Assembly (NCBI GenBank): GCA_016744415.1
Contig: JADGEL010000003.1
Coordinates: 62,001 to 126,000, forward strand
DNA length: 64,000 nt
Direction of reading: 5' to 3'
Origin: Flavobacteriaceae bacterium
GTDB taxonomy: Bacteria; Bacteroidota; Bacteroidia; Flavobacteriales; Flavobacteriaceae
The notes below the pieces were generated by a model that saw nothing but the letters and a program-made list of their open reading frames with translations, was not told where the DNA came from and made no database searches. This document shows positions 3,334 through 20,042 of this stretch, one piece after another (the first letter of the stretch is position 1; each line of letters opens with the position of its first letter). The position numbers were made by a program, and so were the translations under genes.

Positions 3334-6135
3334 TTACAATTTCTCAGCTAAATAGTTAGCAGTATAACTCTCTTTGCAATTCAACAATTCTTCTGGTGTA
3401 CCTTGAAATAATAAATCACCACCTTTTTTACCGCCTTCTTTTCCGAGGTCAATAATATAATCAGCGCATTTGATGAGCTCAATATTGTGTTCAATAACAA
3501 TAATAGAATGCCCGTTTTTAATTAAGGCATTAAATGAAGCTAATAATTTTTTAATATCATGAAAATGAAGACCGGTAGTAGGTTCATCAAAAATAAAAAG
3601 AGACTTACTTTGGCGGGTTCCTTTTACTAAAAAGGATGCTAGTTTAATACGCTGTGCCTCACCACCAGAGAGGGTAGAGGAAGATTGCCCTAAAGTGACA
3701 TATCCTAACCCAACATCTTGAAGAGGTTGTAATTTCTTTGCAATTTTAGTTTCATTATGATCTTTAAAAAAGGAAATAGCATCATCTATAGTCGATTCTA
3801 AAATATCGTTGATAGATTTATCTTGAAATTTTACTTCCAAAATTTCTTTTTTAAATCGCTTGCCATTGCAAACATCACACTCTAAATGCACATCTGCCAT
3901 AAATTGCATTTCGATGGTAACTTCTCCTTCACCTTTACAAGTTTCACAGCGACCACCTTCTACGTTAAACGAAAAATGTTTGGGTTTGTAATTACGAATA
4001 GTTGATAAGCGTTGAGCTGAAAATAAACTTCTAATATCGTCATACACTTTTATATATGTTACCGGATTAGAGCGACTTGAGCGTCCAATAGGATTCTGAT
4101 CAATGAACTCTAAATGTTCAAGTTTATCATAGTTTCCTCTGAGTTTGGTAAACTGCCCTACTTTTTCTCCATATCCATTTAACTGTTTTTGTAAAGCAGG
4201 AAATAATACCTTCTTTACTAATGTACTCTTTCCACTTCCAGAAACACCAGTAATAACGGTCAACATATTAAGTGGGAATTTTACATCGATATTTTGTAGG
4301 TTATTATGGCGAGCACCAATCACTTCAACAAAATCATTGATTGATTTTCTTTTAGCTGGTATTTCTATTTCTAGAGTACCATTTAAATATTGAGCAGTTA
4401 ATGAATCGGATTTAAGCAATTGTTTAAAAGAACCTTCAGCAACTACGTTACCACCAAGTGTTCCAGCTTCTGGACCAATATCTATAATTACATCAGCAGC
4501 TTTCATAATATCTTCATCATGTTCAACAACGATAACAGTATTTCCTAAATCACGTAAGTTTTTTAAAACTTTTATAAGTCGTTCTGTATCTTTTGGATGT
4601 AATCCAATACTTGGTTCGTCGAGAATATACATTGAGCCTACCAAACTACTTCCTAATGATGTTGCTAAATTTATTCGTTGACTTTCTCCTCCTGAAAGTG
4701 TGTTTGAGGTTCTATTTAAAGATAGATAGTTTAGGCCAACATCTGTTAAAAATAACAATCTATTTTTGATTTCTGTCAATAATCGCTTCGCAATATCTAA
4801 CTCTTGATTGTTGAGTTGAATATTTTTGAAAAAATCTGATAATTCATCCAAAGGTAAATCGACCAATTCAGAAATTGTTTTTCCATGTACTTTTACATAA
4901 TTGGTTTCTTTTCGTAATCTCTTCCCATCACAAACATCACATTTTGTTTTTCCACGATAGCGAGACAGCATTACTCTAAACTGAATTTTGTAGCTTTTAC
5001 TTTCTAAATATTTAAAGCATTTGTTGACACCTTCAAAATATTCATTCCCATCCCAAACCAATTGCTTTTGTTCATCACTTAACTCAAAATAGGGGCGGTG
5101 GATTGGGAAATCAAACTTATATGCATTATCAATTAACTCATTTTTATAAGCCTCCATAGAAGGCGATTTCCAAGGAACAATGGCATTTTCATAAATGGAC
5201 AAACCAGTATTAGGAATCACTAAGTCAGTATCTATACCAATAACATTTCCATAGCCTTCACATTTAGGACACGCTCCATAAGGATTGTTGAAACTGAATA
5301 AATGGGTATTAGGTTCTAAAAATTGAATGCCATCCAATTCAAATGAATTGCTAAAAGTAGTTTGAGAATTGTCAGTTAAATTTTGAAGTACACAAGTTCC
5401 CTTGCCTTCAAAAAAAGCAATTTGAACCGCATCTGATAGCCTGTTATAAAAATCTTCATTGTGTTGTACAACTACACGGTCAACCACCAATTCAAAGTTA
5501 TGCCCAAAATCTTCATTTTGAGATTCAACAGTTTTAGAAAAATCTTCAATCCTTAGTACTTCATTGTTAAATTTTACTCTTGCATATCCCTGCTGCGCCA
5601 GAATTGAGAGTGATTTAGAAACGCTTCTATCTTCATGAATATGAACTTTGGATAAAAGTAGTAATTTTGTTTTTACATCCAAACCTTTAACAAAACTAGT
5701 TACATCACTTACCGAATCTTTTTTTACTACTCTACCAGAAACAGGGGAGTGCGTTTTTCCTATTCTTGCAAATAGTAATTTTAAATAATCATAAATCTCT
5801 GTTGATGTACCTACTGTAGATCTAGGGTTTGTGCTATTTACTTTTTGTTCAATTGCGATAGCTGGAGCAATGCCTTTAATGTAATCTACTTTTGGTTTAT
5901 TTAATCGTCCTAAAAATTGACGCGCATAAGAAGATAGGCTTTCCACATATCTTCGTTGACCTTCGGCATATAAAGTGTCAAAGGCCAAACTTGATTTTCC
6001 AGAACCAGATAACCCTGTAATGACTACCAATTTATTTCTTGGGATAGCAACATCAATATTTTTTAAATTATGAAGTTTTGCTCCCTTAATTAAGATGTAT
6101 TCCTTCGGATTTAATACTGCTATATTTTTGGTCAT
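3334..6135 (-). CDS. uvrA: Excinuclease ABC subunit A
   Basis: UvrA is the damage-recognition ATPase of nucleotide excision repair; a dimer loads UvrB at lesions. The 933-aa product has both ABC cassettes: Walker A GLSGSGKS at residues 41-48 and a second GVSGSGKS; signature motifs LSGGESQR and LSGGEAQR; and zinc-finger pairs CPKC, CDVC, CETC and CDVC. Length is normal for a canonical UvrA. I chose ATG at 6135. An in-frame TTG at 6165 would add ten residues, but it lies inside a consensus -7 promoter box, so it would not be transcribed. The gene is monocistronic and divergent from the sigma factor. Confidence 0.97.
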   Translation of the reverse strand: MTKNIAVLNPKEYILIKGAKLHNLKNIDVAIPRNKLVVITGLSGSGKSSLAFDTLYAEGQRRYVESLSSYARQFLGRLNKPKVDYIKGIAPAIAIEQKVNSTNPRSTVGTSTEIYDYLKLLFARIGKTHSPVSGRVVKKDSVSDVTSFVKGLDVKTKLLLLSKVHIHEDRSVSKSLSILAQQGYARVKFNNEVLRIEDFSKTVESQNEDFGHNFELVVDRVVVQHNEDFYNRLSDAVQIAFFEGKGTCVLQNLTDNSQTTFSNSFELDGIQFLEPNTHLFSFNNPYGACPKCEGYGNVIGIDTDLVIPNTGLSIYENAIVPWKSPSMEAYKNELIDNAYKFDFPIHRPYFELSDEQKQLVWDGNEYFEGVNKCFKYLESKSYKIQFRVMLSRYRGKTKCDVCDGKRLRKETNYVKVHGKTISELVDLPLDELSDFFKNIQLNNQELDIAKRLLTEIKNRLLFLTDVGLNYLSLNRTSNTLSGGESQRINLATSLGSSLVGSMYILDEPSIGLHPKDTERLIKVLKNLRDLGNTVIVVEHDEDIMKAADVIIDIGPEAGTLGGNVVAEGSFKQLLKSDSLTAQYLNGTLEIEIPAKRKSINDFVEVIGARHNNLQNIDVKFPLNMLTVITGVSGSGKSTLVKKVLFPALQKQLNGYGEKVGQFTKLRGNYDKLEHLEFIDQNPIGRSSRSNPVTYIKVYDDIRSLFSAQRLSTIRNYKPKHFSFNVEGGRCETCKGEGEVTIEMQFMADVHLECDVCNGKRFKKEILEVKFQDKSINDILESTIDDAISFFKDHNETKIAKKLQPLQDVGLGYVTLGQSSSTLSGGEAQRIKLASFLVKGTRQSKSLFIFDEPTTGLHFHDIKKLLASFNALIKNGHSIIVIEHNIELIKCADYIIDLGKEGGKKGGDLLFQGTPEELLNCKESYTANYLAEKL

Positions 6136-6162
6136 TATGGTGGTGTATTTTTCAAATGAATG

Positions 6163-6170
6163 CAAAGATA
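6163..6170 (-). promoter_or_regulatory. Bacteroidetes -7 promoter box for uvrA
   Basis: Read on the minus strand the sequence is TATCTTTG, a perfect match to the Bacteroidetes -7 consensus TAnnTTTG. The predicted start of transcription is near 6159, giving a leader of about 24 bases to the uvrA ATG at 6135. No TTG was found at the -33 position. Confidence 0.55.
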
Positions 6171-6261
6171 AAATAAAGATTTTAGAATTTATTAAAGGTT
6201 AATTAATAATCAGTACTGACTTATAATCAACTAATAAAACAACAAAAAGATTGATGAATAT

Positions 6262-6292
6262 TTGGTTTTTAAATAAATATAATTCATATTTG
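6262..6292 (+). promoter_or_regulatory. Possible promoter for the ECF sigma factor
   Basis: TTG at 6262-6264 and CATATTTG at 6285-6292 are separated by 20 bases. This resembles the Bacteroidetes TTG-N19-TAnnTTTG promoter with one mismatch in the -7 box. The implied leader is long, about 105 bases, so this is tentative. Confidence 0.35.
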
Positions 6293-6401
6293 TGGCTTAC
6301 TTATAATACACATACCCTATTTACATACTATTACTTTAAAAAAAATTAACGCAGATTATTAGAACTTTAACTAAGTTTTAATTATTTTTTAATTGATAGT
6401 T

Positions 6402-6986
6402 ATGGATAAATTAAAAGTATTAGACAGTAGTCTTGTTTCAAACTACCTTAATGGAGATGAGAGATGTTTCGAAATTCTTATTAAGAGACACAAACAAAGA
6501 GTTTACAATTTTATTTTTTCGAAAGTATTGGATAAAGATATCGCTGAAGATGTTTTTCAGGATACCTTTATTAAGGTAATTAACACCTTGAAAAGAGGTA
6601 AGTATAATGAAGAAGGTAAATTTTTACCTTGGGTTATGCGAATTGCTCATAATTTGGTAATTGATCATTTTAGAAAAAGCAATAGAATGCCAAAGTTTAA
6701 GAATACGGATGAGTTTGATATTTTTTCGGTTCTAGGTGATGGAGAGCTTAATGCTGAAAAACAATTGATTAAAGAGCAAATTTTATCTGATGTGCGTCGT
6801 GTTATTGACGAATTGCCAGATGATCAAAAAGAAGTTTTGTTAATGCGTATGTATAAAGACATGAGTTTTAAAGAAATATCTGAATGTACGGGTGTGAGTA
6901 TAAATACAGCTTTAGGACGTATGCGCTATGCGCTTATTAATATGCGTAAATTAATAGATAAACATCATATTATTTTGGTTAACTAA
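6402..6986 (+). CDS. ECF-type RNA polymerase sigma factor
   Basis: A 194-aa sigma-70 family protein of ECF size. Region 2 spans about residues 5-90 (ISKVLDKD-like helix, DIAEDVFQDTFIKV, then FLPWVMRIAHNLVIDHFRK) and region 4 about 125-180 (IDELPDDQKEVLLMRMYKDMS followed by a helix-turn-helix). It would direct RNA polymerase to a dedicated promoter set. No anti-sigma gene is next to it, unlike many ECF loci; instead a 45-aa small ORF follows within 60 bases and shares its direction and terminator. Start: ATG at 6402 with an A/T-rich upstream; an in-frame TTG at 6393 adds only three residues and looks worse. The regulon cannot be told from this window. Confidence 0.9.
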   Translation: MDKLKVLDSSLVSNYLNGDERCFEILIKRHKQRVYNFIFSKVLDKDIAEDVFQDTFIKVINTLKRGKYNEEGKFLPWVMRIAHNLVIDHFRKSNRMPKFKNTDEFDIFSVLGDGELNAEKQLIKEQILSDVRRVIDELPDDQKEVLLMRMYKDMSFKEISECTGVSINTALGRMRYALINMRKLIDKHHIILVN

Positions 6987-7045
6987 CAATAAAGAAAAAT
7001 AAACACCGTTTATATATTAATTAGTTTAATAAATAACAGGGGTTT

Positions 7046-7183
7046 ATGATGAAACTTTACACAGAAAAGTCTTCTTTTAAGGAGCAACCAAAACAAGAAA
7101 CAATTCAATTTTTACTTAATTACTCCAAGGCACTGAGAATTGTGAAGGCCAAAAGTAAAACTTTTGAATTGCATTTGAATTAA
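7046..7183 (+). CDS. 45-aa small protein downstream of the sigma factor
   Basis: A short ORF beginning MMKLYTEKSSFKEQ and ending FELHLN. It is basic, has no membrane segment and no cysteine, and looks like one or two amphipathic helices (TIQFLLNYSKALRIVKAK). It follows the sigma factor by 59 bases on the same strand, and a perfect 17-bp terminator stem begins 4 bases after its stop, so it is very likely the last gene of the sigma-factor transcript. From memory, similar short proteins occur beside this sigma factor/nth pair in other Flavobacteriaceae, but I cannot verify that here. Function unknown; a small sigma-factor modulator or DNA/RNA-binding peptide is conceivable. Confidence 0.7.
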   Translation: MMKLYTEKSSFKEQPKQETIQFLLNYSKALRIVKAKSKTFELHLN

Positions 7184-7186
7184 GAG

Positions 7187-7221
7187 AAGAAAGACCCAAT
7201 TTTTAAAATTGGGTCTTTCTT
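7187..7221 (+). terminator. Bidirectional intrinsic terminator between the small ORF and nth
   Basis: Arms 7187-7203 and 7205-7221 are a perfect 17-bp inverted repeat with a GACCC/GGGTC core, flanked by A-rich and T-rich ends. It ends the sigma-factor/small-ORF transcript and, read the other way, nth, whose stop lies at 7226. Confidence 0.85.
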
Positions 7222-7225
7222 ATTA

Positions 7226-7855
7226 TTAGAGTTTTTTTCTTCCGATTGTTGAGAAAATGACATCATTTTCTATATTCCATCCTCTGGCAGGTGAATATTC
7301 TCTTCCATAAAAAATAATTTGGAGATGTAATTTGTTCCACAATTCTTTTGGGAATAAACGTTTGGCATCCTTTTCGGTTTGCACTACATTTTTTCCATTT
7401 GTTAACCCCCAACGATACATCAATCGATGGATATGAGTATCTACAGGAAATGCAGGAATACCAAATGCTTGACTCATTACAACACTCGCAGTTTTATGCC
7501 CAACAGCTGGTAACTCTTCTAAATACTCAAAACTTTGTGGAACTTTTCCTTCATGTTTATCAATCAATATTTTTGATAAGCCGTAAATTCCTTTTGATTT
7601 CATCGGAGATAATCCTACTGGACGAATAATCGCTTTAATTTCTTCTACTGATAACTTAATCATATCATACGGGTTGTCGGCTTTTGAAAATAGAATAGGA
7701 GTGATGGTGTTGACTCTGGCATCTGTGCTTTGAGCAGAAAGTAGGACTGCTATTAATAAAGTATAAGGATCTTTATGAATTAAGGGGATTGGAGTTGCTG
7801 GATAAAGTTGTTCTAACGTGTTAATTACAAACTGTACCTTTTCTTGTTTGGTCAT
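7226..7855 (-). CDS. nth: Endonuclease III-like DNA glycosylase/AP lyase without an iron-sulfur site
   Basis: Base-excision-repair enzyme that removes oxidised pyrimidines and cuts the abasic site. The helix-hairpin-helix (LPAVGHKTA, residues 115-123) carries the catalytic Lys121, and VDTH supplies catalytic Asp139. Endonuclease III normally ends with a [4Fe-4S] loop, C-x6-C-x2-C-x5-C. Here the C-terminal part reads FYGREYSPARGWNIEND and the whole 209-aa protein has no cysteine at all, so the cluster cannot form. The catalytic core is otherwise intact. Start ATG at 7855, about 25 bases after a predicted transcription start. It is divergent from bcp. Confidence 0.93.
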   Translation of the reverse strand: MTKQEKVQFVINTLEQLYPATPIPLIHKDPYTLLIAVLLSAQSTDARVNTITPILFSKADNPYDMIKLSVEEIKAIIRPVGLSPMKSKGIYGLSKILIDKHEGKVPQSFEYLEELPAVGHKTASVVMSQAFGIPAFPVDTHIHRLMYRWGLTNGKNVVQTEKDAKRLFPKELWNKLHLQIIFYGREYSPARGWNIENDVIFSTIGRKKL

Positions 7856-7883
7856 ATTTTAAATATCAAAATTGAAAGAGACA

Positions 7884-7891
7884 CAAAGATA
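7884..7891 (-). promoter_or_regulatory. -7 promoter box for nth
   Basis: Minus-strand TATCTTTG, a perfect TAnnTTTG match. The predicted transcription start is near 7880, 25 bases before the nth ATG. No clear -33 TTG. Confidence 0.5.
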
Positions 7892-7945
7892 CAAAGGTTT
7901 GTAGTTGTTATTTTTATTAATGTAGAATTTATAAAATGTAACTGC

Positions 7946-7953
7946 TATCTTTG
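7946..7953 (+). promoter_or_regulatory. -7 promoter box for bcp
   Basis: TATCTTTG matches TAnnTTTG exactly. The predicted start near 7957 leaves a 17-base leader before the bcp ATG at 7974. No clear -33 TTG. Confidence 0.5.
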
Positions 7954-7973
7954 TGTTTTAAAATAGATTTAAA

Positions 7974-8426
7974 ATGACGACATTAAAAATTGGTGATGTA
8001 GCACCAAACTTTAGTTGTAATGACCAAAACGGAAATACAATTAAATTATCAGATTATAAAGGTAAAAAATTGGTATTGTTCTTTTATCCAAAGGCAAGTA
8101 CCCCAGGTTGCATTATGGAAGGTTGTAATTTGAGAGATAATTATCATACTTTTTTAGCAAAAGGATATGATGTATTAGGTGTGAGTGCAGATTCTCAAAA
8201 GAGACAGCAGAATTTTATAAATAAATATGATTTCCCTTTTCCATTATTAGCAGATGAAAATAAAGAGGTGTTAAATGCTTATCAGGTTTGGGGACCAAAG
8301 AAATTTATGGGACGTACTTTTGACGGTATTCATCGTACAACATTCGTAATAGGTGAAAATGGAGTGATTGAAGATGTGATTTTAAAGGTAAAAACTAAAG
8401 CACATACAGATCAGATTTTGAAATAA
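7974..8426 (+). CDS. bcp: Thioredoxin-dependent peroxiredoxin (Bcp/PrxQ type)
   Basis: A cytoplasmic peroxidase that reduces hydrogen peroxide and organic peroxides with electrons from thioredoxin. At 150 aa it has the family length. The active site is STPGCIMEGCNLRD: peroxidatic Cys46 and resolving Cys51, four residues apart as in the Bcp/PrxQ 2-Cys group. The usual text after the first cysteine is T-A-E/Q; here it is I-M-E, a small deviation. The conserved WGPKKFMGR motif and a late THIRTTFVI-like strand (HRTTFVIGENG) are present. It is divergent from nth and converges on a small membrane-protein gene 7 bases beyond its stop. Confidence 0.95.
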   Translation: MTTLKIGDVAPNFSCNDQNGNTIKLSDYKGKKLVLFFYPKASTPGCIMEGCNLRDNYHTFLAKGYDVLGVSADSQKRQQNFINKYDFPFPLLADENKEVLNAYQVWGPKKFMGRTFDGIHRTTFVIGENGVIEDVILKVKTKAHTDQILK

Positions 8427-8433
8427 AATATAC

Positions 8434-8787
8434 TTATTCTAATTCATCCAATTCATCATCTAACTCTTCCAACTCTTTTACTGCATCTACTTCAGATTGT
8501 TTTTCTTTTTGAATAAATTCGGTATCGGCTTTGACTTCATCTTCGGTAAATAATTGTTTACCCATTGATATGATAATGGCTAACAAAGCAAGAAGCACTA
8601 CAATTCTAGCAAAAGAAAAATTTAATTTCTGTTTTTTGGCAGATAAATAGGCAATGAGCCCAAGTATTAACCCAAGTACAGCAGGGAATATTGCCAAATT
8701 AGAAATTGGTAAAAAAGAAAATAATAATCCGAGAATTGCACCTATGATTCCGAATATGCTTAGGATTGTAATGAGAGTTTTATTCAT
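8434..8787 (-). CDS. Small membrane protein with acidic C-terminus, unknown function
   Basis: A 117-aa protein with three hydrophobic segments (about residues 5-26, 30-48 and 58-76) and a charged cytoplasmic-type tail that ends in a run of Glu, Asp and Leu (ELEELDDELDELE). I do not recognise a named family; the glycine-rich helices resemble small DUF4190-like membrane proteins. It lies 73 bases downstream of the large sensor-NTPase gene on the same strand, so read-through from that unit is possible, but the gap and the different character of the protein make a functional link unproven. Confidence 0.7.
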   Translation of the reverse strand: MNKTLITILSIFGIIGAILGLLFSFLPISNLAIFPAVLGLILGLIAYLSAKKQKLNFSFARIVVLLALLAIIISMGKQLFTEDEVKADTEFIQKEKQSEVDAVKELEELDDELDELE

Positions 8788-8860
8788 TTGTCTTAAAATT
8801 TTAAAAGGTAAATTTAATGTATTATAATTATTCTAATACCTTAACGTGCATAATTTAAAA

Positions 8861-11800
8861 TTATTTTATTTTTTGTGTTAGCGTAAAAGCTCTTGTTAAT
8901 GTTGGAATCACTGTCATAACTCCTGCTATTGCAATTAATATTTTGTTCATGCTTTTAAAGAAATCAGGTTTGCCAAATCCAATTAATATAACTAAAGCAA
9001 CAATGATGAGAATTATAGCTGTTTTTATATTATTCCATTTTCCTTTTTTACGAACTTCTGAATTCATCATTTTCATTTCTTCACCAGAAAGAACAGACAA
9101 TACAAAGTTTTTAAAGCTTTGATTCATAATGTCAATTCTATTATTTTCAATAATAAACAGCCCCTTTTTTAGAAGAGAATTTATGATAGGTATATTTTTA
9201 GTGTTTATAAAACCATCATTTGACATATCATAAACTGCAAATTTTTCTTTTCTAGTCAAGGCATTCCATAAGGCAAAATAATATGATTTTACATAGTCTT
9301 GAATTAATAACACAATTTCATCATTTGAAATTCCTTGAACCTTTTGTTCTAAAATTAAAAATTGTTTTTGCAAAAAAGATCCATGCTTTAACTCACGCAT
9401 CAACAGTAATATTTTTTCTTCATGGGGTGACAATGTATTGTCAATTTCTTTAGAAATTAATTTGGTAAAATCCTTTTTAAAGGGCAAATTTGTTTGATTT
9501 AATGGTTTATATATTTCGATAAAGTTACTAAGAATGTGTCGCCAAATCTCTAATTCATGCTCCAATCCTTTTTTAATAGTTGGATCTTGATTTTTTTCAT
9601 AAATAGCTCTAGTGTACATATCTAAAATTTCTGAAGGTTCAATTTCAGAAGTAAGAATAATTTGTTTGCCAGTGTTTTGAAGATATTCTAAAATCTCCAT
9701 CTTTTTGGCATTAATATCATGATCGTCATTTTTATATTCAAAATTATCAAGAACAACAATATCTTGATTCTTATATTGATCATAAAAAGTTGTATTACTT
9801 TCAAAAACACTATGATTTATTGTGGTACAATTTATAACCATCACCTTTTTATTTTCTTTATAAAGCTCATTTATAAAAGTTGTTTTACCGGAGGATGGCA
9901 AGCCAATAATAATAGTATTGTTATTTTTTAATGTTTCAATAGTAAGTTGTTCATCATATTTTATTCTTTTCAAATCCAATCCATAAATTTTAGTAATACA
10001 AAACGAGATAATAGCATATAAGCTACCTGTAAACAAGCTTGCTATGCCTAGAAATAATATTAAAATAAAGAGTTTTTTACTTCTGCTCAACCCCTTAAAA
10101 TAGTTTAGGTGTACCTTTGTTTGTAATGTGTTTACGGTATTATTAATGTAAATTTGACTATCAATATTAGCTGTGTCTTTAACTTTTTGAACACTAACCT
10201 TATAAGAAAGTAAGTTAGATTTTTTATTCATTTTCCAAGTATAGAGTCCATCATCAGAAGAGGATTTTGCTAGATTGCTATTCTTAATAATATCATTGTT
10301 ATAACTTGGCCTGAATGCTAGCATTACTTTGCTAAAACTGTCTTCGGACGGTAGGGTGTTTTTTAATGAATCATCTTTTTTGAATTTAATTCCTAAAAAA
10401 TCATAATATAATCCATCCAATTTTTTATTAGAAGAATGTAAATTAGTCAATGATTCTGAGGGATTGTTCATTTTTCTATCTTTTTGATTTTTGATTTTTT
10501 TTGTAAAATCAAGCAGTGTATATCTATCCCATATTCTTGTTTCAAATTTGTATGATGTATAATAGAAAATTGACATTGGAATTATTGCCGTAGTAACTAA
10601 CCATGACAAAAGGAAAAAGCAATAGACCCTTTTGAAAGTAACATTGTATTCTGAGTTTGAGTTTTTATTTCTATTAAGCTTGAAATTAGATCTAAAAATA
10701 AATATGTAGATAAGGACAATGAGTAATTGATAAACTAAAAATAAAGAAGCTTCAATTATTCCAGACCTTGTAATAGTAAAGAATACAAGATTGATGATTA
10801 CAAAGATCCCTAAAGAACAAGATTTAAAGAGGAGTTTTTCATTTTTTGAAAAGAAGACACCAAGTTTATTGAAAATAAGTATGAATACTGTTAGTGGTAG
10901 AATGAGTAAAATAAAGACAACATCAACATTTGTATTGGCAACAAATAGAACAAAAATCAAAGTAATAACCCCAATGATACAATTAAATAGAGTAAGTTTT
11001 CTGTAAACGTGTTTTAATCTTTTTTTAGGAGACATCCAATCAAAGAAAAATTGCTTAGTTAATAATTTCCTATTTCTTTTTTTAAAAATATTCATCAAAA
11101 TCATAATTGTACCTACAATGATAAATGAGAACGAAATTAAAAATAAAGACATGGTCCAAATTTCTGAAATTTTTGATTTTAGGTAACCAATATCATAATG
11201 CACAATTAAAAAGAGTGGAGTACCTTTTAACGGCGATATTTTTGCAGCATGTGTTTTATCTAAATAGTCAATGTTAGTTTTTAAACTTGTTCTACTATAG
11301 ATTGCAGATCTTAATTTTGAATTGTTTTTACTTTCTTCAATAAAGTTTTCTTGTAGGTTTTTTGAATTGTTTGAGTGAATAATAACATCGCCATTTGAGT
11401 TTATAATACTAAAACCATAACCTAAGGGTAATATAGGCTCAATGACTGATTTAAACTTAGAAGCCATGGCAATGATGGGGTTGTATAAGGTATCTTTTCC
11501 TTTTTTTGAGACTACTATTTCATGCTCATTTCTAGTCCATGAAGTAATAGATTCTAAATAATATTGCTCTTTAAAGTTGGGGTGGCTCCACAAAGAATCT
11601 CCCTGAACTGCTTTTATATAATCGCGATTGTGTAAATCAATAGGGTCATTAACATTTTTGTAAGTAGGAAAAATTTGTAAGCTTTGAAAACCATCAGGAT
11701 AGGTCCAAAAAGTTGTTGTAAAATTTGAATAGATATTTGGGTAGAAATGTGTTTTATAATCTTTTGAAGCCGCATTCAAAATTTGTGTACTATATGCACC

Positions 11801-13123
11801 ATCATAATATAGGATTGAATCATAAGCAGTAAGTTGTTTTAAAACTAGGTTTATTTCTTCTGTAAGATTCTCCTCAACTTCATTTGATAGCTCATCTAGA
11901 TTGTGATGTGTTCGTTCAATTTCATAGCTGTAATTGAAACTGATAAGGCCGAGCAATACTAAAAATAATGTTCCCATAATTATTGAGGTACCTGTCATTA
12001 ACACATTTGTTCTATGAAGTCGCTCAATAGAATTCATGAGTGCTAATTTTAGTGTTGGCATTAAGAAAATTAATAGAATAATAAAAAGAGTAGAGTTTAT
12101 TATCACCCAAAAGCTGATGCTCCTAACTTTTGTTGTGTAATTATTTTGTTCTACACACCCTGCCAATATCCATTCTTGTTTTTCGCTTTTATCAAAATAG
12201 AGGTTATGAGTAAAAACTTTATATTCTGTTTCTCCTACATTTATTGTTCTTTTTAGAGCTGGATTTTGAGCACTATAAGTATAAAACAAACTATCTTTTG
12301 AGCTAATAGTAATCTTGTTTTCATAGGTTTGAAAAATAATTTTCTTAGTATTTTTATTTATAATAATAAACTCATCAAAAACATCAGTCCTCAAAATAGA
12401 GCTCATAAAACCGGAAAGTGGTTTTTTAAATGTGGCATACCAACCTTCTTTACAAAAATTTCCTGTTGTAGTTTTACAGATTACATTTTTATAAATAATA
12501 GAATTCATATTTGTTGCCACAGCAACAGGTAAATTCAAGGCAATAGAATCTTTAACGCTTATAATAAAATCTGAAGTAAAAAAATTAAGAGACTCCTTTA
12601 TTTCACCAAATGACACTGTATCTTTATTTGTTTGAACATAATAGGAAGTTGTTAGGTTATTATATTCAATTTCTAATTGAGAGATAAATTTATCTATTTC
12701 GTTAATTTTTTTTTTTAATTTACTAGATTTTGAGTACCCTTTTTTTCTTTGTTCATTTGATTTTTCTGATTTTAAATCTATTTCGACTGCATCTCGTATT
12801 ACAATTATTGAGTCATACTTGTCAAGTATTTGCTGAGTTTTGAATTCGTTTTCATCATAGTCTGGAGAATAATAGTCAGAAGGGGATGAGCTATTCTCTT
12901 TAAGATGCTTTATTACAGTAAAAATATTTTTTTTATTCGTTTCGTTTTTCTTTTCTATATTATTTCCTATTTGCGCTAAAACACGATATGCTTTTTGTTG
13001 ATAATCAGCTTCATTACTCTTAACAAAACCTAAAAAATAAAATGAATAACCAGCACCAATCATAATAAGTACAGAAAGAACAGTTATTGCTTTTTTCGAA
13101 AATCCAGGTACTTTAATAGCCAT
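8861..13123 (-). CDS. Giant membrane sensor with Cache-like domains and a cytoplasmic P-loop NTPase
   Basis: A 1420-aa multidomain protein. An N-terminal helix (about 11-31) leads to a first extracytoplasmic region (32-335) whose end looks Cache-like (DVFDEFIIINKNTKK...WILAGCVE). Two helices (about 337-357, 375-398) precede a second region (400-665) with the dCache hallmark DLHNRDYIKAV near residues 493-503. About six more helices and a roughly 200-aa extracytoplasmic insertion follow, then a helix near 1016-1040. The cytoplasmic part has Walker A GLPSSGKT (about 1073-1080) and Walker B DIVVLDNFEY (about 1118-1127), a winged-helix-like segment near 1281-1320 (LTRKEKFAVYDMSNDGFIN), and a C-terminal pair of helices. 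I infer a STAND/AAA-like NTPase gated by an extracellular ligand. It starts 5 bases after the patatin gene, so the two are surely co-transcribed. The gene is very rich in Asn, Lys, Ile and Ser codons. Confidence 0.8.
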   Translation of the reverse strand: MAIKVPGFSKKAITVLSVLIMIGAGYSFYFLGFVKSNEADYQQKAYRVLAQIGNNIEKKNETNKKNIFTVIKHLKENSSSPSDYYSPDYDENEFKTQQILDKYDSIIVIRDAVEIDLKSEKSNEQRKKGYSKSSKLKKKINEIDKFISQLEIEYNNLTTSYYVQTNKDTVSFGEIKESLNFFTSDFIISVKDSIALNLPVAVATNMNSIIYKNVICKTTTGNFCKEGWYATFKKPLSGFMSSILRTDVFDEFIIINKNTKKIIFQTYENKITISSKDSLFYTYSAQNPALKRTINVGETEYKVFTHNLYFDKSEKQEWILAGCVEQNNYTTKVRSISFWVIINSTLFIILLIFLMPTLKLALMNSIERLHRTNVLMTGTSIIMGTLFLVLLGLISFNYSYEIERTHHNLDELSNEVEENLTEEINLVLKQLTAYDSILYYDGAYSTQILNAASKDYKTHFYPNIYSNFTTTFWTYPDGFQSLQIFPTYKNVNDPIDLHNRDYIKAVQGDSLWSHPNFKEQYYLESITSWTRNEHEIVVSKKGKDTLYNPIIAMASKFKSVIEPILPLGYGFSIINSNGDVIIHSNNSKNLQENFIEESKNNSKLRSAIYSRTSLKTNIDYLDKTHAAKISPLKGTPLFLIVHYDIGYLKSKISEIWTMSLFLISFSFIIVGTIMILMNIFKKRNRKLLTKQFFFDWMSPKKRLKHVYRKLTLFNCIIGVITLIFVLFVANTNVDVVFILLILPLTVFILIFNKLGVFFSKNEKLLFKSCSLGIFVIINLVFFTITRSGIIEASLFLVYQLLIVLIYIFIFRSNFKLNRNKNSNSEYNVTFKRVYCFFLLSWLVTTAIIPMSIFYYTSYKFETRIWDRYTLLDFTKKIKNQKDRKMNNPSESLTNLHSSNKKLDGLYYDFLGIKFKKDDSLKNTLPSEDSFSKVMLAFRPSYNNDIIKNSNLAKSSSDDGLYTWKMNKKSNLLSYKVSVQKVKDTANIDSQIYINNTVNTLQTKVHLNYFKGLSRSKKLFILILFLGIASLFTGSLYAIISFCITKIYGLDLKRIKYDEQLTIETLKNNNTIIIGLPSSGKTTFINELYKENKKVMVINCTTINHSVFESNTTFYDQYKNQDIVVLDNFEYKNDDHDINAKKMEILEYLQNTGKQIILTSEIEPSEILDMYTRAIYEKNQDPTIKKGLEHELEIWRHILSNFIEIYKPLNQTNLPFKKDFTKLISKEIDNTLSPHEEKILLLMRELKHGSFLQKQFLILEQKVQGISNDEIVLLIQDYVKSYYFALWNALTRKEKFAVYDMSNDGFINTKNIPIINSLLKKGLFIIENNRIDIMNQSFKNFVLSVLSGEEMKMMNSEVRKKGKWNNIKTAIILIIVALVILIGFGKPDFFKSMNKILIAIAGVMTVIPTLTRAFTLTQKIK

Positions 13124-13128
13124 AGTAA

Positions 13129-14406
13129 TTAATTTTTAGATCTTAAATTTTTGTAAGCTTCCCAGTCAAATCCTTCTAAAAATTCAATTGCTTTTTTGGC
13201 ACCTAATACAAATAATGCTATTTGTGTAGTATCACTCATATTAAAATCAAGCCAATTAAACTTTTCATCGGCATCAATGCGACAAATGAGTTTGCTATAG
13301 TCAGGGTTTTTCAATAAAAAGTCATAATCATGTATTTGTCGCATTGTACTCACCATAGCTCCGCTAATCCCTAATATTTTATCGGATTTACTATAGGTTT
13401 CTCTATAAACACTTAAACGAGCACCAAAAGTGGGCATTCTTGGAGCTCCACCATCTGGTCTATGAAAAACGTTGATAGGAAAGTTAGAGAGCATTCCGCC
13501 ATCAACAAACTTTACACTTTTTGGAACAGGCCCAGAATAGCGAGCAAATTTATACCATGATGGGTCATTTTCGGTATCTGCATTTGGAATATTTCCAATT
13601 TCATACGGCTCAAAAAAAAATGGAATAGACATTGACGCCCTTACCAATTCGGATGGTTTTACTTTATCAGTATTTGACCAATAAAGTGATGACATTCTTG
13701 GAAATTCTGCTTTTGTATGTGTAGTTATATCAGAGGTAATGATGGCTAACTTCGGGACTAGATTGTGAATCGGCTCATTTAATTGAACATTTACAAGGCT
13801 GTCTGGTGTATGCTCTCTTAATTGTAACAGATCTTTCATAGAACCAATACCAGTATTTTCTAGTGACGTATCAATCCAATTTTTAAAAACACTGCCAGGG
13901 TTTAACCCCAATTTTCTTTTTAGGATTCCTAAAATTTTTCGACCATATCGAAGAAAGAAAAAAAACCACCCTTTTTCTTTCTTTACATATTTTGTTATCA
14001 TCTTTTTCACAGCACTATCTCCATCTACAAAATCAAAAAAAGCTTGTTCAGAAATTAACTTCAAAATCTTTTCTGATTTATTTTCATCAATCCTCCCAAG
14101 TCCAGCCATCATCATAGTGTTGATAGCCCCTGCAGATGTCCCTGCTAAACTGCAAAACCGTAAACCTGTATTTTCTAATACGTATGTGTATCCAACTAAG
14201 GCAATTCCGAGAACACCACCACCTTCTTGAACCAAATCTATATATTGATTTCCGTCACCATCTTCAATATCCGAAAAACGGTGGTTGTCTTTTTTGAGCT
14301 TTTGAGCTCTTTTAATAATTTTTAAAACTTCTGAATTTTGAGTAAACTTTTCCATAGCTATTGAATATAGTTTGTGATTGACTATTCTTTCTGTAAAGAA
14401 TAGCAT
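13129..14406 (-). CDS. Patatin-like phospholipase, first gene of the sensor-NTPase operon
   Basis: A 425-aa patatin-family serine lipase with a Ser-Asp dyad: oxyanion loop GGGVLG (62-67), nucleophile elbow GTSAG with Ser91, and VDGG with Asp302. The catalytic residues are intact, so it is predicted to hydrolyse membrane lipids or acyl esters. No signal peptide is seen, so it should be cytosolic; a basic, aromatic patch (WFFFFLRYGRKILGILKRK, about 147-165) could hold it at the inner membrane. The next gene encodes a membrane sensor with a P-loop NTPase, which suggests regulated lipase activity. I chose ATG 14406 because a perfect -7 box lies 31 bases upstream; ATG 14355 (residue 18) is the alternative. 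Patatins serve as effectors in several bacterial immune systems, but no nucleotide cyclase is nearby. Confidence 0.9.
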   Translation of the reverse strand: MLFFTERIVNHKLYSIAMEKFTQNSEVLKIIKRAQKLKKDNHRFSDIEDGDGNQYIDLVQEGGGVLGIALVGYTYVLENTGLRFCSLAGTSAGAINTMMMAGLGRIDENKSEKILKLISEQAFFDFVDGDSAVKKMITKYVKKEKGWFFFFLRYGRKILGILKRKLGLNPGSVFKNWIDTSLENTGIGSMKDLLQLREHTPDSLVNVQLNEPIHNLVPKLAIITSDITTHTKAEFPRMSSLYWSNTDKVKPSELVRASMSIPFFFEPYEIGNIPNADTENDPSWYKFARYSGPVPKSVKFVDGGMLSNFPINVFHRPDGGAPRMPTFGARLSVYRETYSKSDKILGISGAMVSTMRQIHDYDFLLKNPDYSKLICRIDADEKFNWLDFNMSDTTQIALFVLGAKKAIEFLEGFDWEAYKNLRSKN

Positions 14407-14436
14407 TAGCTATAATAAAAAGTGTTTGGAGGAACC

Positions 14437-14444
14437 CAAATATA
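14437..14444 (-). promoter_or_regulatory. -7 promoter box for the patatin/sensor operon
   Basis: Minus-strand TATATTTG, a perfect TAnnTTTG match. The predicted start is near 14433, giving a 27-base leader to ATG 14406, in line with the other promoters in this window. No clear -33 TTG. Confidence 0.5.
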
Positions 14445-14530
14445 CTAAAAAAATATTAACTAATAGTTAACTTTTTGATTAGCAATGAGTTTGTGAAGTG
14501 CAGGGTGTGGGTTTGAAATGAAAAATATTT

Positions 14531-15310
14531 TTATTTAGTATAATTACTTAACCTAATTTGAACTCTACCAACAGGAATATTCGCTTCAATCAAAGCCGGC
14601 AAGCGATCGTCATCAGCAGTAATGTAAATATATTTTCCGCCTTTAATATTTTCAATTTCACTCCCCCCAAACCCAATGGAGAGTTTATAGCATTCCTTTT
14701 TGCCATAGTTTACCATAGAAACAGTTTCTTTGCCTAGATATTCAATAGTGATTGTTTGTACTTCAGAATCGACAATTAATTTTTTTATGACTCTTTTTCC
14801 GACAGAAAAATTTTCGTAGTCTAAAATTCTAGCATTGTATATTGCAGAAACAATATCTAAGGTAGTATCAGTAATTGGCACTTCAGTTTTATAATCTTTG
14901 TAACCTTTTTTATTTAAAGTAGAAATGGCAATTTTTGATTTACGCTTAAACAAATATTTCAACTCTTTTTTATAAGTACCTTCTTCAATGTTTCTTTTGT
15001 ATAACACAGGAAGTAAGGTTTCAATATCTACATAGCTTTCATACAAGTCTCTTACTTTAAAAAATTTATCCCAACTAGAATAGGTAGAAGCAGTACATTT
15101 TAACCGTAATAATTCGCGTGATTTTGTTTTTACTGTTGATGTTTCCATTTTTACTTCGGCAATATCTGTCATAACTCCAGATATATTGAATGATGCAATG
15201 AATGTTAACTTTTCGCCACTTTTGATATGTTGATTTTCTACTAAAGTTGAGCTAGTATTGAATGCAAAAACTATAAATAGGACTGCGATAAATGAAACTT
15301 TTTTAAACAT
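14531..15310 (-). CDS. DUF3108 domain-containing exported protein
   Basis: A 259-aa protein with an N-terminal signal peptide (about residues 1-20) and then a beta-rich domain of the DUF3108 type: an early SGEKLTFIASFN strand, alternating charged/hydrophobic strands through the middle, and a late ADDDRLPALIEANIPVGRVQIRL segment typical of the family. DUF3108 proteins are periplasmic or envelope proteins of unknown function with a predicted lipocalin-like or LolA-like barrel. It lies downstream of the TonB-dependent receptor and M23 peptidase genes on the same strand with an 89-base gap, so it may belong to an envelope transcription unit. Confidence 0.8.
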   Translation of the reverse strand: MFKKVSFIAVLFIVFAFNTSSTLVENQHIKSGEKLTFIASFNISGVMTDIAEVKMETSTVKTKSRELLRLKCTASTYSSWDKFFKVRDLYESYVDIETLLPVLYKRNIEEGTYKKELKYLFKRKSKIAISTLNKKGYKDYKTEVPITDTTLDIVSAIYNARILDYENFSVGKRVIKKLIVDSEVQTITIEYLGKETVSMVNYGKKECYKLSIGFGGSEIENIKGGKYIYITADDDRLPALIEANIPVGRVQIRLSNYTK

Positions 15311-15399
15311 ATTTTTTATTCTTTTTTTAAATATTTTTACTAAGTATTACTTTAAAAAAAACGTTGACTTTGAATTTTTATTGACTATCTCTTTGAAAT

Positions 15400-17856
15400 T
15401 TAAAACTTCATATTAAGTTTTACATTAAACACACGGCTTGTCATATAATTAGGAATTCCGTATGAATTTTTTGAATATACATCTCGAACCCAAATATTGG
15501 TGATTGAATTTTGTACATCAAACATGTTATAAATTTCTATACCAAATGTTAACTCTTTAAAACTTTTAAACATTCCAGAAGTTCTTAATTTATTAGCATC
15601 TACCAATACATAAGATATCCCAATATCGGCTCTTTTATAAGAATCTAGTCTGCTTTGGTATTCATAAGGGTCAGCATAAGATGGAGAACCTCCTGGTAAT
15701 CCGGTATTAAAAACCAAATTTAAATACATTTTTAACTCCGGTATATTAGGTACATAATCTTGAAATAGAATTGCCAATTTAAAACGCTGATCTGTAGGGC
15801 GTGGAATATATCCTCTATCGTCAATATTCTCTTTAGTAGTCATAAAACCCATAGATACCCAGCTTTCTGTACCTGGAACAAACTCACCATTTAATCGCAT
15901 ATCAAAACCCGCAGCATAAGCGACAGCATTGTTTTTTGCAGCATATCTAATTCTAACATTATCTACTGTATAAGGGTTTACATCCCACATGTGTTTGTAA
16001 TAGGCTTCAGTTACCAATTTAAAAGGACGATTCCACATGTTAAAACTATAATCGTTACCTAACACAAAGTGTAATGATTTCTGTGCCTTTACATTTGGTT
16101 TAACAGTTCCTGTTGAATCTCGTAACTCTTTATAAAAAGGAGGTTGACTGTACAGACCAGTTGAGAATCTGAACAACATATCTTTGTCCCAATTAGGTTT
16201 AAGAGCAATTTTACCTCTTGGACTAATGATTGTTTGGCTACCGTCAGAATCAATACCATCGCCTTTTACAGTCCAATTTTGAGCTCTTACGCCTAAATTA
16301 TACCAAACTTCATTTTCGCCCAATTCACCTTTTTTACTCCATTGAGCAAATCCAGAAATGCGATGTATCTGTGCATTATTTTTTGCTCTTACACTTGTAA
16401 ACGGAACAATAGGCCCTTCGAATGGTTCGTAAGGTTGTTCGTTAGGAATGTGATTTGGAGGGCGAATGGAAAATCCAGCAGAATCAATTACTTCCCACTC
16501 TATCAATCTATCTCTAATATCTTCTGTTTGATATTTTGCACCAAATTCAAATTGATGTCCATTTTTAAAATAGTTTGCTTTTAGCTGAACTGTGCTGATT
16601 AATGCATCTAAGTTATTTCTTGCATGACTTAATTGTGAGCCAATTCCTTCTGAGAATTCAACTTCACCAAAATCTTCAGAGCCAAAGTTAGAATCAACTT
16701 CTCCCAAGTTGTAAGAGGCCAAAATATCGTAATGTTCAGACTCTTGCGTATTATAAACTGATGTCGTTAAATCCATCTGTAAATTTTCATTGACTTGGTA
16801 CGTTCCTTTTAAGGCACCAAAAGCTGTTTGGTAATAATCTTTTTCTTGTCCTTGATAAAAGACAATCAATTCTAAAGGGTTGGCTACTGTTCCAAATTTT
16901 GTTCTTCTAGTAATAGGAGTATAGTTATAATTGTTTACTGAATAACTTCCTAAAAAATCAATTTTTAAATGCTCATTAATTTCATAGGATAAAAATGTTT
17001 GCACATCAGTAAACTTTGGTTTGTAGTTTACATCAGTATCTTTACTGTTTACCAAAAGACTATTATCTCTATAGCGCACACCAACCAAGGCAGATAATTT
17101 ATCTTTAAATAATTTTCCCTCAACGGTAGCACTTCCACCTAATAAGCTCAAGTTAACTGCCGCAGCTAATTCTTGCGGTGTCCTATAGGTAATGTCTAAT
17201 ACCGAAGACATTTTATCGCCATATTTAGCTTGAAACCCTCCAGCAGAAAATTCAACTTTCTGAGTCATATCAGCATTTACAAAACTTAACCCTTCTTGTT
17301 GACCTGAGCGCACCAAAAATGGGCGATACACTTCAATACCATTTACATAGACTAAGTTTTCATCAAAATTCCCACCACGTACATTGTATTGAGTACTCAA
17401 CTCATTGTTGTTATTAACCCCTGCAAATGTCATAATCAAATTTTCAACCCCAGCATTTGCTCCTGGAATATTCTTTAATTCAGTTACATCAATCTTGGTA
17501 ACTCCTTCTGCATCCTTAGTTCTGTTTTCAACATCAACCTCTTGTAACTCTTCTGTCACCAGATACATTCTTGGAGAATAGCGAACCGTTTTACCAGCTC
17601 TCACATTAAATTTTTTAGTTTTGGTTGCAAAGGTAAGATGGCTAAAAGTAACCGCAACTTCTTTGTTTGCTGTAATGGTGATTTGATAATTACCCTGAGC
17701 ATCACTAGATACCCCTGTATTTTCAAAACTGACGGAAACATTTTCAATTGGCTTACCGTTTTCGTCTTTAATAACTCCTTGTAAGGTGGCTGTTTGAGCA
17801 AAAATACCTATTGAAATAAGTAAGAATAAAAGGGCAAGGTTTAATTTTGATTTCAA
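15400..17856 (-). CDS. TonB-dependent receptor with carboxypeptidase-regulatory-like domain
   Basis: An 818-aa outer-membrane receptor. A signal peptide (1-20, ending FAQ) is followed by a CarboxypepD_reg-like domain (about 22-100, beginning ATLQGVIKDENGKPI) and a plug domain (about 105-225) with the motifs DVTELKNIPGA, YNVRGGNFDENLVYVNGIEVY and FSAGGFQAKYGDKMSSVLDI. A beta-barrel makes up the rest, ending in NVKLNMKF with a terminal aromatic residue. It imports an unknown ligand with TonB energy. The gene starts 19 bases after the M23 peptidase stop, so the two are probably one operon; this pairing suggests an envelope role but does not reveal the substrate. No SusD partner is present. Confidence 0.92.
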   Translation of the reverse strand: MKSKLNLALLFLLISIGIFAQTATLQGVIKDENGKPIENVSVSFENTGVSSDAQGNYQITITANKEVAVTFSHLTFATKTKKFNVRAGKTVRYSPRMYLVTEELQEVDVENRTKDAEGVTKIDVTELKNIPGANAGVENLIMTFAGVNNNNELSTQYNVRGGNFDENLVYVNGIEVYRPFLVRSGQQEGLSFVNADMTQKVEFSAGGFQAKYGDKMSSVLDITYRTPQELAAAVNLSLLGGSATVEGKLFKDKLSALVGVRYRDNSLLVNSKDTDVNYKPKFTDVQTFLSYEINEHLKIDFLGSYSVNNYNYTPITRRTKFGTVANPLELIVFYQGQEKDYYQTAFGALKGTYQVNENLQMDLTTSVYNTQESEHYDILASYNLGEVDSNFGSEDFGEVEFSEGIGSQLSHARNNLDALISTVQLKANYFKNGHQFEFGAKYQTEDIRDRLIEWEVIDSAGFSIRPPNHIPNEQPYEPFEGPIVPFTSVRAKNNAQIHRISGFAQWSKKGELGENEVWYNLGVRAQNWTVKGDGIDSDGSQTIISPRGKIALKPNWDKDMLFRFSTGLYSQPPFYKELRDSTGTVKPNVKAQKSLHFVLGNDYSFNMWNRPFKLVTEAYYKHMWDVNPYTVDNVRIRYAAKNNAVAYAAGFDMRLNGEFVPGTESWVSMGFMTTKENIDDRGYIPRPTDQRFKLAILFQDYVPNIPELKMYLNLVFNTGLPGGSPSYADPYEYQSRLDSYKRADIGISYVLVDANKLRTSGMFKSFKELTFGIEIYNMFDVQNSITNIWVRDVYSKNSYGIPNYMTSRVFNVKLNMKF

Positions 17857-17875
17857 ATTGATTGCTTATTATAAG

Positions 17876-19567
17876 TTATTTTTTTCTATAAAACGTAGCT
17901 TCTAGAAGTTTCGTATTTCCAACATTATCAATTGCAATAACTTTTAATTGATGTTTGGCATTTGTAAATTTTTTATCTCTAAAATCATAAGTCAGAGTTC
18001 CATGTTTTGGACTATATTCTAGTAAAATCCATTTACCATCAATTTCTCCTCTATATGACTTTAATCCTGATAATTTATCTGACACTTTTAATTTTAAATA
18101 ATTGTAATGTGTCAACCATTGTTGATCTTTTATGTTTGCTAATTTTAGCGACGGCTCTTCTGTATCAGTTAACAAGGTAAATGTACCCAAATCTTTTGTT
18201 GTAGTGTAAAAAGTATGTTCTTTTTTTGTTGTCTCTTTGTAGGAAACTCTCCCTTTGTCACTCAATTTTGCAATAAATAATTGATCTCTATCTTTATGTG
18301 GATATTTAGAAACATCAAAAGTTAAAGTATAGTTTTTATGTAGCGGAACTGTTTTGTTATGGATAGTTGCAATACTATCGATTACTTTAAAATCTAAATA
18401 AAAATCATCATAAAAAGTGTTTTTAGGGAAAGCAATGGTAACTCCACCTTTTTGATATTTATTAAATTCATTTGCTTTGATTGGATATTGAGTACTCTTA
18501 TCTTTTTTATAAATAGTAATACTGTCTTTTTTTCCTTGTATCGGAATGGTGAGTGATTTTTTATTCCCTTCAAAATCTTTTACTACAATTATAACATTGT
18601 AGGTGAGACTATCTACAATACTGAGAACACCATTATTAATAATATTTTTATAAACACTCAATTTATTTGACGGATGTACAAAACAGCGTTGAACACGTTG
18701 CTTTAAATTAGCATATCTATCATAGTCAATCAGCAGGTTAAGGTATTTAGATTCAGCAAATGAAAAAGTTTCCACTTCATGCTCATATACTTTTTGACCA
18801 TTGGCAGTCATTGACATATTGTAAATTCCATTTTTATTCATGGCACCATTTAATCTGTCATAGGTGTTGATTCCAAATCCAATTTCACCCGTAGCTGTAA
18901 TTTTATCAGCCAATAGATTACCATCGGCTAGAGATTTAAAATTAATCTGCAAAGGAGCGTTTGATTGATTTACTTGTGATGAATCATTTTGTGGATACAC
19001 CATCAACACATTTATATTGGGTCTTTTAGTATCTTTAATATCAATACCAAAAAGCATTGGGTTGATGGGTTTTGAATTATGATCTCTAATTTCGAAATGT
19101 AAATGTGGACCCACAAACCCACCGGTGCTGCCAGAGTAAGCAATAACTTCTCCTTTCTCAATTGTTAATTCATTTGGTTTTGGAAAAAGCTGAATCTCAT
19201 AACTTTCTTTTTCATATTGTTTTGTTTTTAGAAAAGCTTCTATTTTTTTATTGAACTTTTTTAAATGGGCATAGACCGTAGTATATCCATTGGGGTGTGT
19301 TATGTATAAAGCTTTTCCATACCCCCAAGCCGAAATTTTAATACGCGATACATATCCCTCAGCAGAGGCAAAGACCTTTAATCCTTCTATCTGATTTGTC
19401 TTAATATCTAACCCTGCATGAAAGTGGTTGGTTCGCAACTCACCAAAAGTTCCAGATAAATAAAGTGGGATATTTAACGGGTTTTGAAAATAATCAGTTG
19501 GGTATTTCTCTTGCGAGTATACTGAAATGATAGTAAAAAAAAGGATGCCAAAAATTCGGAATTTCAA
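17876..19567 (-). CDS. M23 (LytM-type) metallopeptidase, exported
   Basis: A 563-aa exported protein: signal peptide 1-19, then a LytM/M23 domain at about 35-175 with zinc ligands in HAGLD (His50, Asp54) and HLHFE (His155, His157); all catalytic residues are present. M23 enzymes cut peptidoglycan cross-bridges. The remaining 380 residues are beta-rich, Ig-like (several TFDVS/LKVSDKLSG-type strands) and may bind substrate or the outer membrane. Signs of a lipobox are absent, so it is probably periplasmic or secreted. It heads a unit with the TonB-dependent receptor 19 bases downstream and diverges from the zapB/zapA unit, which fits a cell-wall remodelling role. Confidence 0.92.
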   Translation of the reverse strand: MKFRIFGILFFTIISVYSQEKYPTDYFQNPLNIPLYLSGTFGELRTNHFHAGLDIKTNQIEGLKVFASAEGYVSRIKISAWGYGKALYITHPNGYTTVYAHLKKFNKKIEAFLKTKQYEKESYEIQLFPKPNELTIEKGEVIAYSGSTGGFVGPHLHFEIRDHNSKPINPMLFGIDIKDTKRPNINVLMVYPQNDSSQVNQSNAPLQINFKSLADGNLLADKITATGEIGFGINTYDRLNGAMNKNGIYNMSMTANGQKVYEHEVETFSFAESKYLNLLIDYDRYANLKQRVQRCFVHPSNKLSVYKNIINNGVLSIVDSLTYNVIIVVKDFEGNKKSLTIPIQGKKDSITIYKKDKSTQYPIKANEFNKYQKGGVTIAFPKNTFYDDFYLDFKVIDSIATIHNKTVPLHKNYTLTFDVSKYPHKDRDQLFIAKLSDKGRVSYKETTKKEHTFYTTTKDLGTFTLLTDTEEPSLKLANIKDQQWLTHYNYLKLKVSDKLSGLKSYRGEIDGKWILLEYSPKHGTLTYDFRDKKFTNAKHQLKVIAIDNVGNTKLLEATFYRKK

Positions 19568-19675
19568 TCTTTATTTTTTTGCTAAAATAACAAATAAAAC
19601 AGCTATTAAACAATAATAGGATAAGCATTTACATCAGAGTATCTTAAAAATATTTCATCAAAAAAGCCAAAACAG

Positions 19676-19706
19676 TTGTTAAATTCGGATAAGTATGGTA
19701 CATTTG
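19676..19706 (+). promoter_or_regulatory. Bacteroidetes-type promoter for zapB-like/zapA
   Basis: TTG at 19676-19678, a 20-base spacer and TACATTTG at 19699-19706 match the consensus -33 TTG / -7 TAnnTTTG. The start would be near 19710. This is downstream of the first possible ATG (19695), so translation must begin at the next ATG, 19737. Confidence 0.65.
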
Positions 19707-19736
19707 AAACATAGTTTTGGTATCTTAGATAAAGAG

Positions 19737-20027: not shown

Positions 20028-20042
20028 GTTCTTTTTAACTTT

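Follow-up and report, generated by a model that had tools for sequence, protein, structure and literature searches.

The genome of a Flavobacteriaceae bacterium encodes a patatin-like phospholipase and a 1420-amino-acid membrane protein as close neighbors within the 64,000-nucleotide stretch of DNA analyzed here (GenBank assembly GCA_016744415.1, contig JADGEL010000003.1, positions 62,001 to 126,000 of the forward strand). We refer to this whole stretch as the window, and number positions from its first nucleotide. As originally predicted from the sequence of the window, the two genes lie five bases apart, and both open reading frames (ORFs) are confirmed; they are on the minus strand, with the patatin gene first. 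The name BIG is used for the membrane protein and its relatives. Lipases of unrelated kinds are found beside some of the relatives, and this suggests a sensor-and-lipase switch that has not previously been described. In our best explanation, to which we give a probability of about 45%, BIG would serve in the inner membrane as a receptor or scaffold, and the hydrolases that it holds or controls would be exchangeable, in this case a phospholipase. We are led to this by the anatomy of the pair, with a Cache domain outside, a platform inside and a lipase encoded by the next gene, and by the different lipases that lie beside sister BIG proteins.

The patatin ORF (13129-14406, minus strand) is 425 amino acids long, and its product matches the Pfam family Patatin (PF01734) with E = 1.7e-24. 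Translation probably starts at Met18 (position 14355), giving a product of 408 rather than 425 amino acids, because in the alignment the homologs at loci L008 and L009 start close to the position of this methionine. The protein has the motifs expected of the family, these being the glycine-rich oxyanion motif EGGGVLG, the nucleophile Ser91 within GTSAG (14134-14136, minus strand) and the catalytic Asp302 within DGG (13501-13503, minus strand). An alignment of the window patatin with 14 homologs, drawn from the 23 loci of one homolog search, shows Ser91 and Asp302 to be invariant in 15 of 15 sequences. The catalytic residues are therefore intact, as had been claimed, and no loss of them was seen. 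By family and active site this is a predicted phospholipase. No signal peptide is apparent by eye in this protein, nor in the patatins next to BIG at loci L056 and L131.

BIG (8861-13123, minus strand) is a polytopic inner-membrane protein with 12 predicted transmembrane (TM) helices. Simple hydropathy, with the segments alternating across the membrane, puts three stretches outside (residues 32-335, 397-657 and 854-1017) and one inside (residues 1037-1365), followed by a C-terminal TM pair at residues 1366-1413 (8885-9028, minus strand). We compared 28 long family members, comprising the window protein, that of Hymenobacter locus L027 and those of 26 loci out of the 27 that BIG searches returned; the interrupted copy at L059 and the truncated copy at L008 were excluded. 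The second ectodomain (397-657; 11153-11935, minus strand) is matched by dCache_1 in 17 of the 28 members, and a search with its profile retrieves Cache-type domains of solved structure (9hvj, E = 2.4e-5; sporulation kinase D, 4jgo, E = 0.0012). Within it R500 is present in all 28 sequences and Y502 in at least 90% of them. Taken alone, the window BIG sequence gives no Cache match in Pfam scans, and single-sequence scans recognize its P-loop region only. Family homology thus predicts that ectodomain 2 of the window protein is an extracytoplasmic Cache fold set between two TM helices. The profile of ectodomain 1 (32-335; 12119-13030, minus strand), built from 24 of the 28 members, has no match in the PDB, and a Cache fold is unsupported there. 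Consequently the proposal of at least two Cache-like ectodomains is supported for the second and not for the first, and a third ectodomain (854-1017; 10073-10564, minus strand) had been missed. No family in Pfam, NCBIfam or PADLOC spans BIG as a whole, and AlphaFold models of its two halves, made from three and two sequences, are too poor to interpret (mean pLDDT 39 and 41).

Inside the cell, residues ~1060-1180 (9584-9946, minus strand) form a P-loop NTPase-like core, with a Walker A sequence GLPSSGKT at 1074-1081 and a Walker B-like DNFE at 1126-1129. A cytoplasmic P-loop does therefore lie on the same polypeptide as an extracytoplasmic Cache domain, next to an intact patatin. Pfam reports matches to RNA_helicase, DnaA, AAA_14 and nSTAND3, some of them below cut-off; the profile of the region found nothing in the PDB better than E = 0.25, and this route lent no support to an NTPase identity. 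Beyond the core lies a winged-helix-like segment (residues ~1270-1345; 9089-9316, minus strand), named by its pattern and with no database match. It is the best recognizable part of the family. W1286, D1299 and N1307 are invariant in 16 aligned sequences, W1286 is present in 27 of the 28 members, and the last TM pair is also recognizable in the 16-sequence alignment. The segment is retained even where the P-loop has gone. Canonical GK[ST] is found in three of 28 members, and 12 have some form of GxPxx[GN]K loop, leaving 16 without, among them the patatin-paired Hymenobacter BIG, which has lost its P-loop. Hydrolysis of nucleoside triphosphate (NTP) had been put forward as the step that releases the lipase; since most relatives, one of them paired with a patatin, have a degenerate loop, it is not a general release step. 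Given the Cache homology, the frequent loss of the P-loop and the retention of the winged-helix-like segment and last TM pair, BIG is better described, on its sequence, as a receptor or platform in the membrane whose NTPase-like part is often degenerate. Pfam scans turned up no kinase, methyl-accepting or cyclase domain.

What lies beside BIG in other genomes? Searches with BIG alone gave 27 loci (L052-L066 and L122-L133) in 26 genomes; L008 and L027 were found through the patatin and are left out of the following counts. Three loci have a patatin gene immediately upstream of BIG (L056, L131 and L132; Pfam E = 3.7e-13, 8.3e-27 and 4.4e-27) with gaps of -25, 9 and 15 bp, the patatins of L131 and L132 being 69% identical. 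A Tle1-like lipase (PF09994) adjoins BIG in two more, upstream in L124 (E = 1.8e-88) and downstream in L130 (E = 1.2e-91). The 26 genomes contain 74 patatin and six PF09994 matches at E up to 1e-5. Assuming 1.1 kb per gene, and using Poisson tails that take no account of relatedness and were devised once the pattern had been noticed, we expect 0.018 upstream patatins against three observed (9e-7, or 1.5e-4 with one event dropped for relatedness), 0.003 adjacent Tle1 genes against two (4e-6, or 2.9e-3 with one event similarly dropped), and 0.038 of either lipase on either side against five (6e-10). Lipase adjacency is thus above background. The count excludes an alpha/beta hydrolase 742 bp upstream of BIG in L127, a hydrolase below Pfam cut-offs 29 bp upstream in L063, and a Tle1-like gene ~6.5 kb from its BIG in genome G836. 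On a quick tree of BIG, which warns of long branches, the patatin-associated L056 and the Tle1-associated L130 are sisters with SH-aLRT support of 100; on this evidence one lipase has been exchanged for another of a different Pfam family. The window and L027 proteins do not group on the same tree.

In the scheme that we favor, the outside Cache domain would sense an extracytoplasmic or envelope cue, and the NTPase-like and winged-helix region with the last TM pair would hold, position or switch the cytosolic hydrolase encoded next door. Once released or activated, the window patatin would cut inner-membrane phospholipids. Partners would be exchangeable, with other BIG proteins adjoining CapV-like patatins or Tle1-like lipases and some partner loci also carrying peptidoglycan amidases, M19 dipeptidase-like proteins and subtilases. 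Coupling is supported by gaps of 5 bp in both the window and L008 and 2 bp in L027, and by the adjacency statistics. We infer that the two proteins touch and that BIG restrains the lipase until a ligand prompts its release; the outcome would be arrested growth or lysis and not the maintenance of lipids, and the purpose might be defense, antagonism or lipid turnover. A role in defense is possible, given the CapV-like lipases beside some BIG genes and the sporadic distribution of the family. A bolder form of the idea is a cyclase-free membrane immune or lysis switch, in which a winged-helix/pseudo-NTPase platform embedded in the membrane would let the Cache receptor activate cytosolic lipases directly, and in which a single receptor scaffold would have acquired, across the Bacteroidota, lipases that are not homologous to one another as well as other hydrolases of the envelope; this we put forward only tentatively, and think somewhat unlikely. 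The parts are of known kinds, and it is their combination and the exchange of lipases that are new to us. Different lipases beside one receptor family would provide a concrete and testable receptor-effector code.

How often do the two genes occur together? BIG was found in three of 149 genomes of a family sample, 14 of 395 of a class sample and seven of 395 of a phylum sample, these samples overlapping, and in 2/35, 6/92 and 6/131 genomes of three other families, picked because each already held a match. The window-type patatin was found in 1/149 of the family sample (E up to 1e-20) and 12/395 of the class sample (E up to 1e-30). The class sample covers 197 genera and is taken as the same for both proteins; thresholds were E = 1e-8 and 1e-30. 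Scoring was confined to the best candidates of a first look, which may have made the counts too low.

A number of observations weigh against the coupling of BIG to a lipase. Both families are present in only two of the 395 class-sample genomes (G000 and G222) and adjacent in one, that of the window; in G222 a single contig has them at a distance of ~135 kb. Of 34 other loci of the window-type patatin, some of which are cut short by contig ends, just two (L008 and L027) have BIG. Immediately adjacent patatin or Tle1 genes are lacking from 22 of the 27 BIG loci, of which a few have another hydrolase next door (L063 and L058) and several have ordinary genes. In genome G1042 an L131-type patatin and BIG are on different contigs, unlinked. 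The divergent BIG genes of L126, L128 and L129 directly follow three genes of one family, unlike the lipase pairs; Pfam calls the two members scanned in L126 proton-antiporter-type membrane subunits. Moreover, the protein-family scans took in a selection of neighbor genes only. A conserved two-gene system is thus rejected as stated, since the families are mostly found apart, a result named beforehand as one that would count against the original proposal.

The cassette seems instead to be an accessory unit that is acquired or lost in one piece, because it is entirely absent from a syntenic genome and present beside the same genes in another. Genome G113, of the same genus, keeps the order of the flanking genes from 3334 to 22159 without the patatin-BIG cassette, while the near relative L008, a metagenome-assembled Urechidicola genome, has the pair and, next to the patatin, the flanking genes that the window has there. 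In G113 the site is occupied by a gene with two thioredoxin-like regions (L136, 7722-8918). Further afield, Hymenobacter locus L027 has the window-type patatin and BIG paired. Carriage of BIG by plasmids or viruses found no support: neither the window BIG nor that of L131 matched a plasmid, nor did a 3-kb stretch of L126 DNA, and no BIG was confirmed on viral contigs; the window patatin has two distant plasmid matches.

The lipases and envelope hydrolases might instead be antagonistic effectors, deployed in offense or self-protection, with BIG their anchor, loader or immunity partner and not a sensor. The Tle1-like family is by name a phospholipase family of the type VI secretion system (T6SS), and peptidoglycan amidase or CHAP, M19, S8 and papain-type proteins are found in the same loci. 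We consider this unlikely, however. BIG carries a Cache domain, the window, L056 and L131 patatins lack a signal peptide by eye, and neither secretion-system genes nor a cognate immunity protein were recognized among those neighbors, not all, that were scanned and annotated. Furthermore, the lipase immunity proteins known to us are far smaller than BIG. Cache domains mostly sense small ligands, and a sensor of envelope stress or of nutrients, adjusting phospholipid turnover as ordinary physiology, would be in keeping both with this and with L008, where the pair beside the same genes points to stability within the lineage. Yet presence in 3/149 and 14/395 genomes is unlike housekeeping, a same-genus genome lacks the pair, and sister BIG proteins have different lipases, all of which makes such a role quite improbable.

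The canonical Walker A of the window copy could be taken to mean that BIG is a motor, releasing the lipase by NTP hydrolysis, but with GK[ST] in only three members and no P-loop in patatin-paired L027 we give this little credence; a lineage-specific role for NTP in the window BIG may exist. Equally hard to credit is that the two are chance neighbors, accessory genes lacking functional coupling. That the families are mostly apart would be expected on such a view, but the 5-bp spacing, the recurrence of the pair in L027 and L008 and the excess of adjacent lipases would not. A receptor or scaffold that governs a neighboring hydrolase remains the explanation we prefer.

Upstream of the patatin gene is a candidate promoter element of the Bacteroidota -7 type, TATATTTG (14437-14444, minus strand). 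The G+C contents of BIG (27.3%) and the patatin gene (34.0%) may be compared with 31.8% for the window; no clear signature of foreign base composition was found, and third-position G+C resembles that of the neighbors. The same-strand neighbors of the pair encode a DUF3108 protein and a 117-amino-acid protein (Pfam).

While the window carries the two-gene form only, a wider set of genes recurs elsewhere, in associations given without a chance estimate. An unnamed family with three TM helices, fam4, is present in four patatin loci (L009, L012, L016 and L017) and four BIG loci (L056, L058, L062 and L130). Examples are L012, 3844-4923; L130, 3159-4343; L056, 1828-3072; and L139, 6950-8194. The members scanned have no Pfam match over cut-off and no NCBIfam or PADLOC match. 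Genes of this family lie near those for amidases, M19-like, S8 or metallophosphoesterase proteins and lipases in Bacteroidota, and with such neighbors also on Rhizobium, Caballeronia and Hymenobacter plasmids; one Hymenobacter plasmid has fam4, amidase, S8 and M19-like genes in a row. The M19-like family is found in one patatin locus (L009) and four BIG loci (L058, L065, L066 and L132), and fam15, of subtilase/trypsin type, in patatin locus L015 and BIG loci L063, L065 and L066, with L062 added by profile search only. Peptidoglycan amidase or CHAP-type proteins also recur. With fam4, these accompanying hydrolases look like an undescribed modular system.

Some window-type patatins without BIG have neighbors of their own. 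Those of L011, L013 and L019 (e.g. L013, 7408-8988) are preceded in conserved order by proteins of ~105 and ~415 amino acids, the latter with an apparent signal peptide; L012, L018 and L130 have in common another family of similar size. Small lipoprotein-like ORFs of 161 and 167 amino acids, judged by eye, are present in L131 (3388-4209) and L009 (8162-9008), each followed by a protein of ~110 amino acids. The two ~110-amino-acid proteins, one from a BIG locus and the other from a patatin locus, are homologs; the lipoprotein-like ORFs have no mutual match.

Several known systems have features in common with the pair. Tle1 effectors of the T6SS offer one likeness, such a lipase lying directly beside BIG in L124 and L130, although PF09994 is unrelated to the Pfam family of the window patatin. 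The profile of ectodomain 2 links BIG to dCache receptors, matching both KinD (4jgo) and 9hvj; in place of a known signaling output domain, none of which was found by Pfam, BIG has its NTPase-like/winged-helix region. A P-loop followed by a winged-helix-like segment recalls STAND and AAA-type NTPases (weak matches to nSTAND, NB-ARC, AAA_14 and DnaA), but in BIG this region lies between TM helices and the P-loop is degenerate in most members. One core with varied effectors is a theme in common with the NTP-dependent conflict systems of Kaur et al. 2020 (PMC7159879), the main text of which mentions neither 'patatin' nor 'Cache'. Literature searches at the level of abstracts yielded no description of a Cache membrane protein with patatin partners. 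Overall the original interpretation is partly supported; that some relatives of BIG lie beside lipases, of several folds and above background, speaks for it.

Another comparison is with the cyclic-oligonucleotide-based antiphage signaling systems (CBASS), whose effector CapV is likewise a cytosolic patatin. The L131 patatin matches the solved CapV, a lipase activated by cyclic dinucleotides, with E = 2.2e-18. The NCBIfam model CBASS_lipase matches the BIG-adjacent patatins of L131 (E = 2.3e-37) and L056 (E = 2.7e-15), both below its 200-bit cut-off, and the PADLOC phospholipase-effector model matches that of L056 with E = 1.1e-24, which favors a reading as defense. The window patatin itself has no CBASS_lipase match at E up to 10 and matches the PADLOC effector model weakly (E = 0.0015); PADLOC on the pair gave weak matches alone (E = 0.012 and 0.0015) and no strong match to a defense model. 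No defense-island context was seen among the genes scanned. Clustering with defense genes is not supported, the adjacent genes being in place in the same-genus genome that lacks the pair. The absence of a cyclase or other immune gene nearby, as originally claimed, holds for the five window proteins scanned with Pfam, the pair scanned with PADLOC and, as judged by a motif pattern only, for CD-NTase-like cyclases in ORFs under 500 amino acids of the first 26 kb; the rest of the 64 kb lay outside those scans. In the other seven loci the cyclase-like pattern gave three matches; no gene adjoining the pair was among them, and none lay beside the L131 patatin. To our knowledge, the bacterial immune patatins described so far, CapV and its relatives, are controlled by nucleotide messengers of intracellular origin. 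Here the patatin's neighbor is a Cache membrane protein, and a lipase under an outward-looking membrane receptor would, if our explanation is correct, be a different route from perturbation of the envelope to attack on the membrane.

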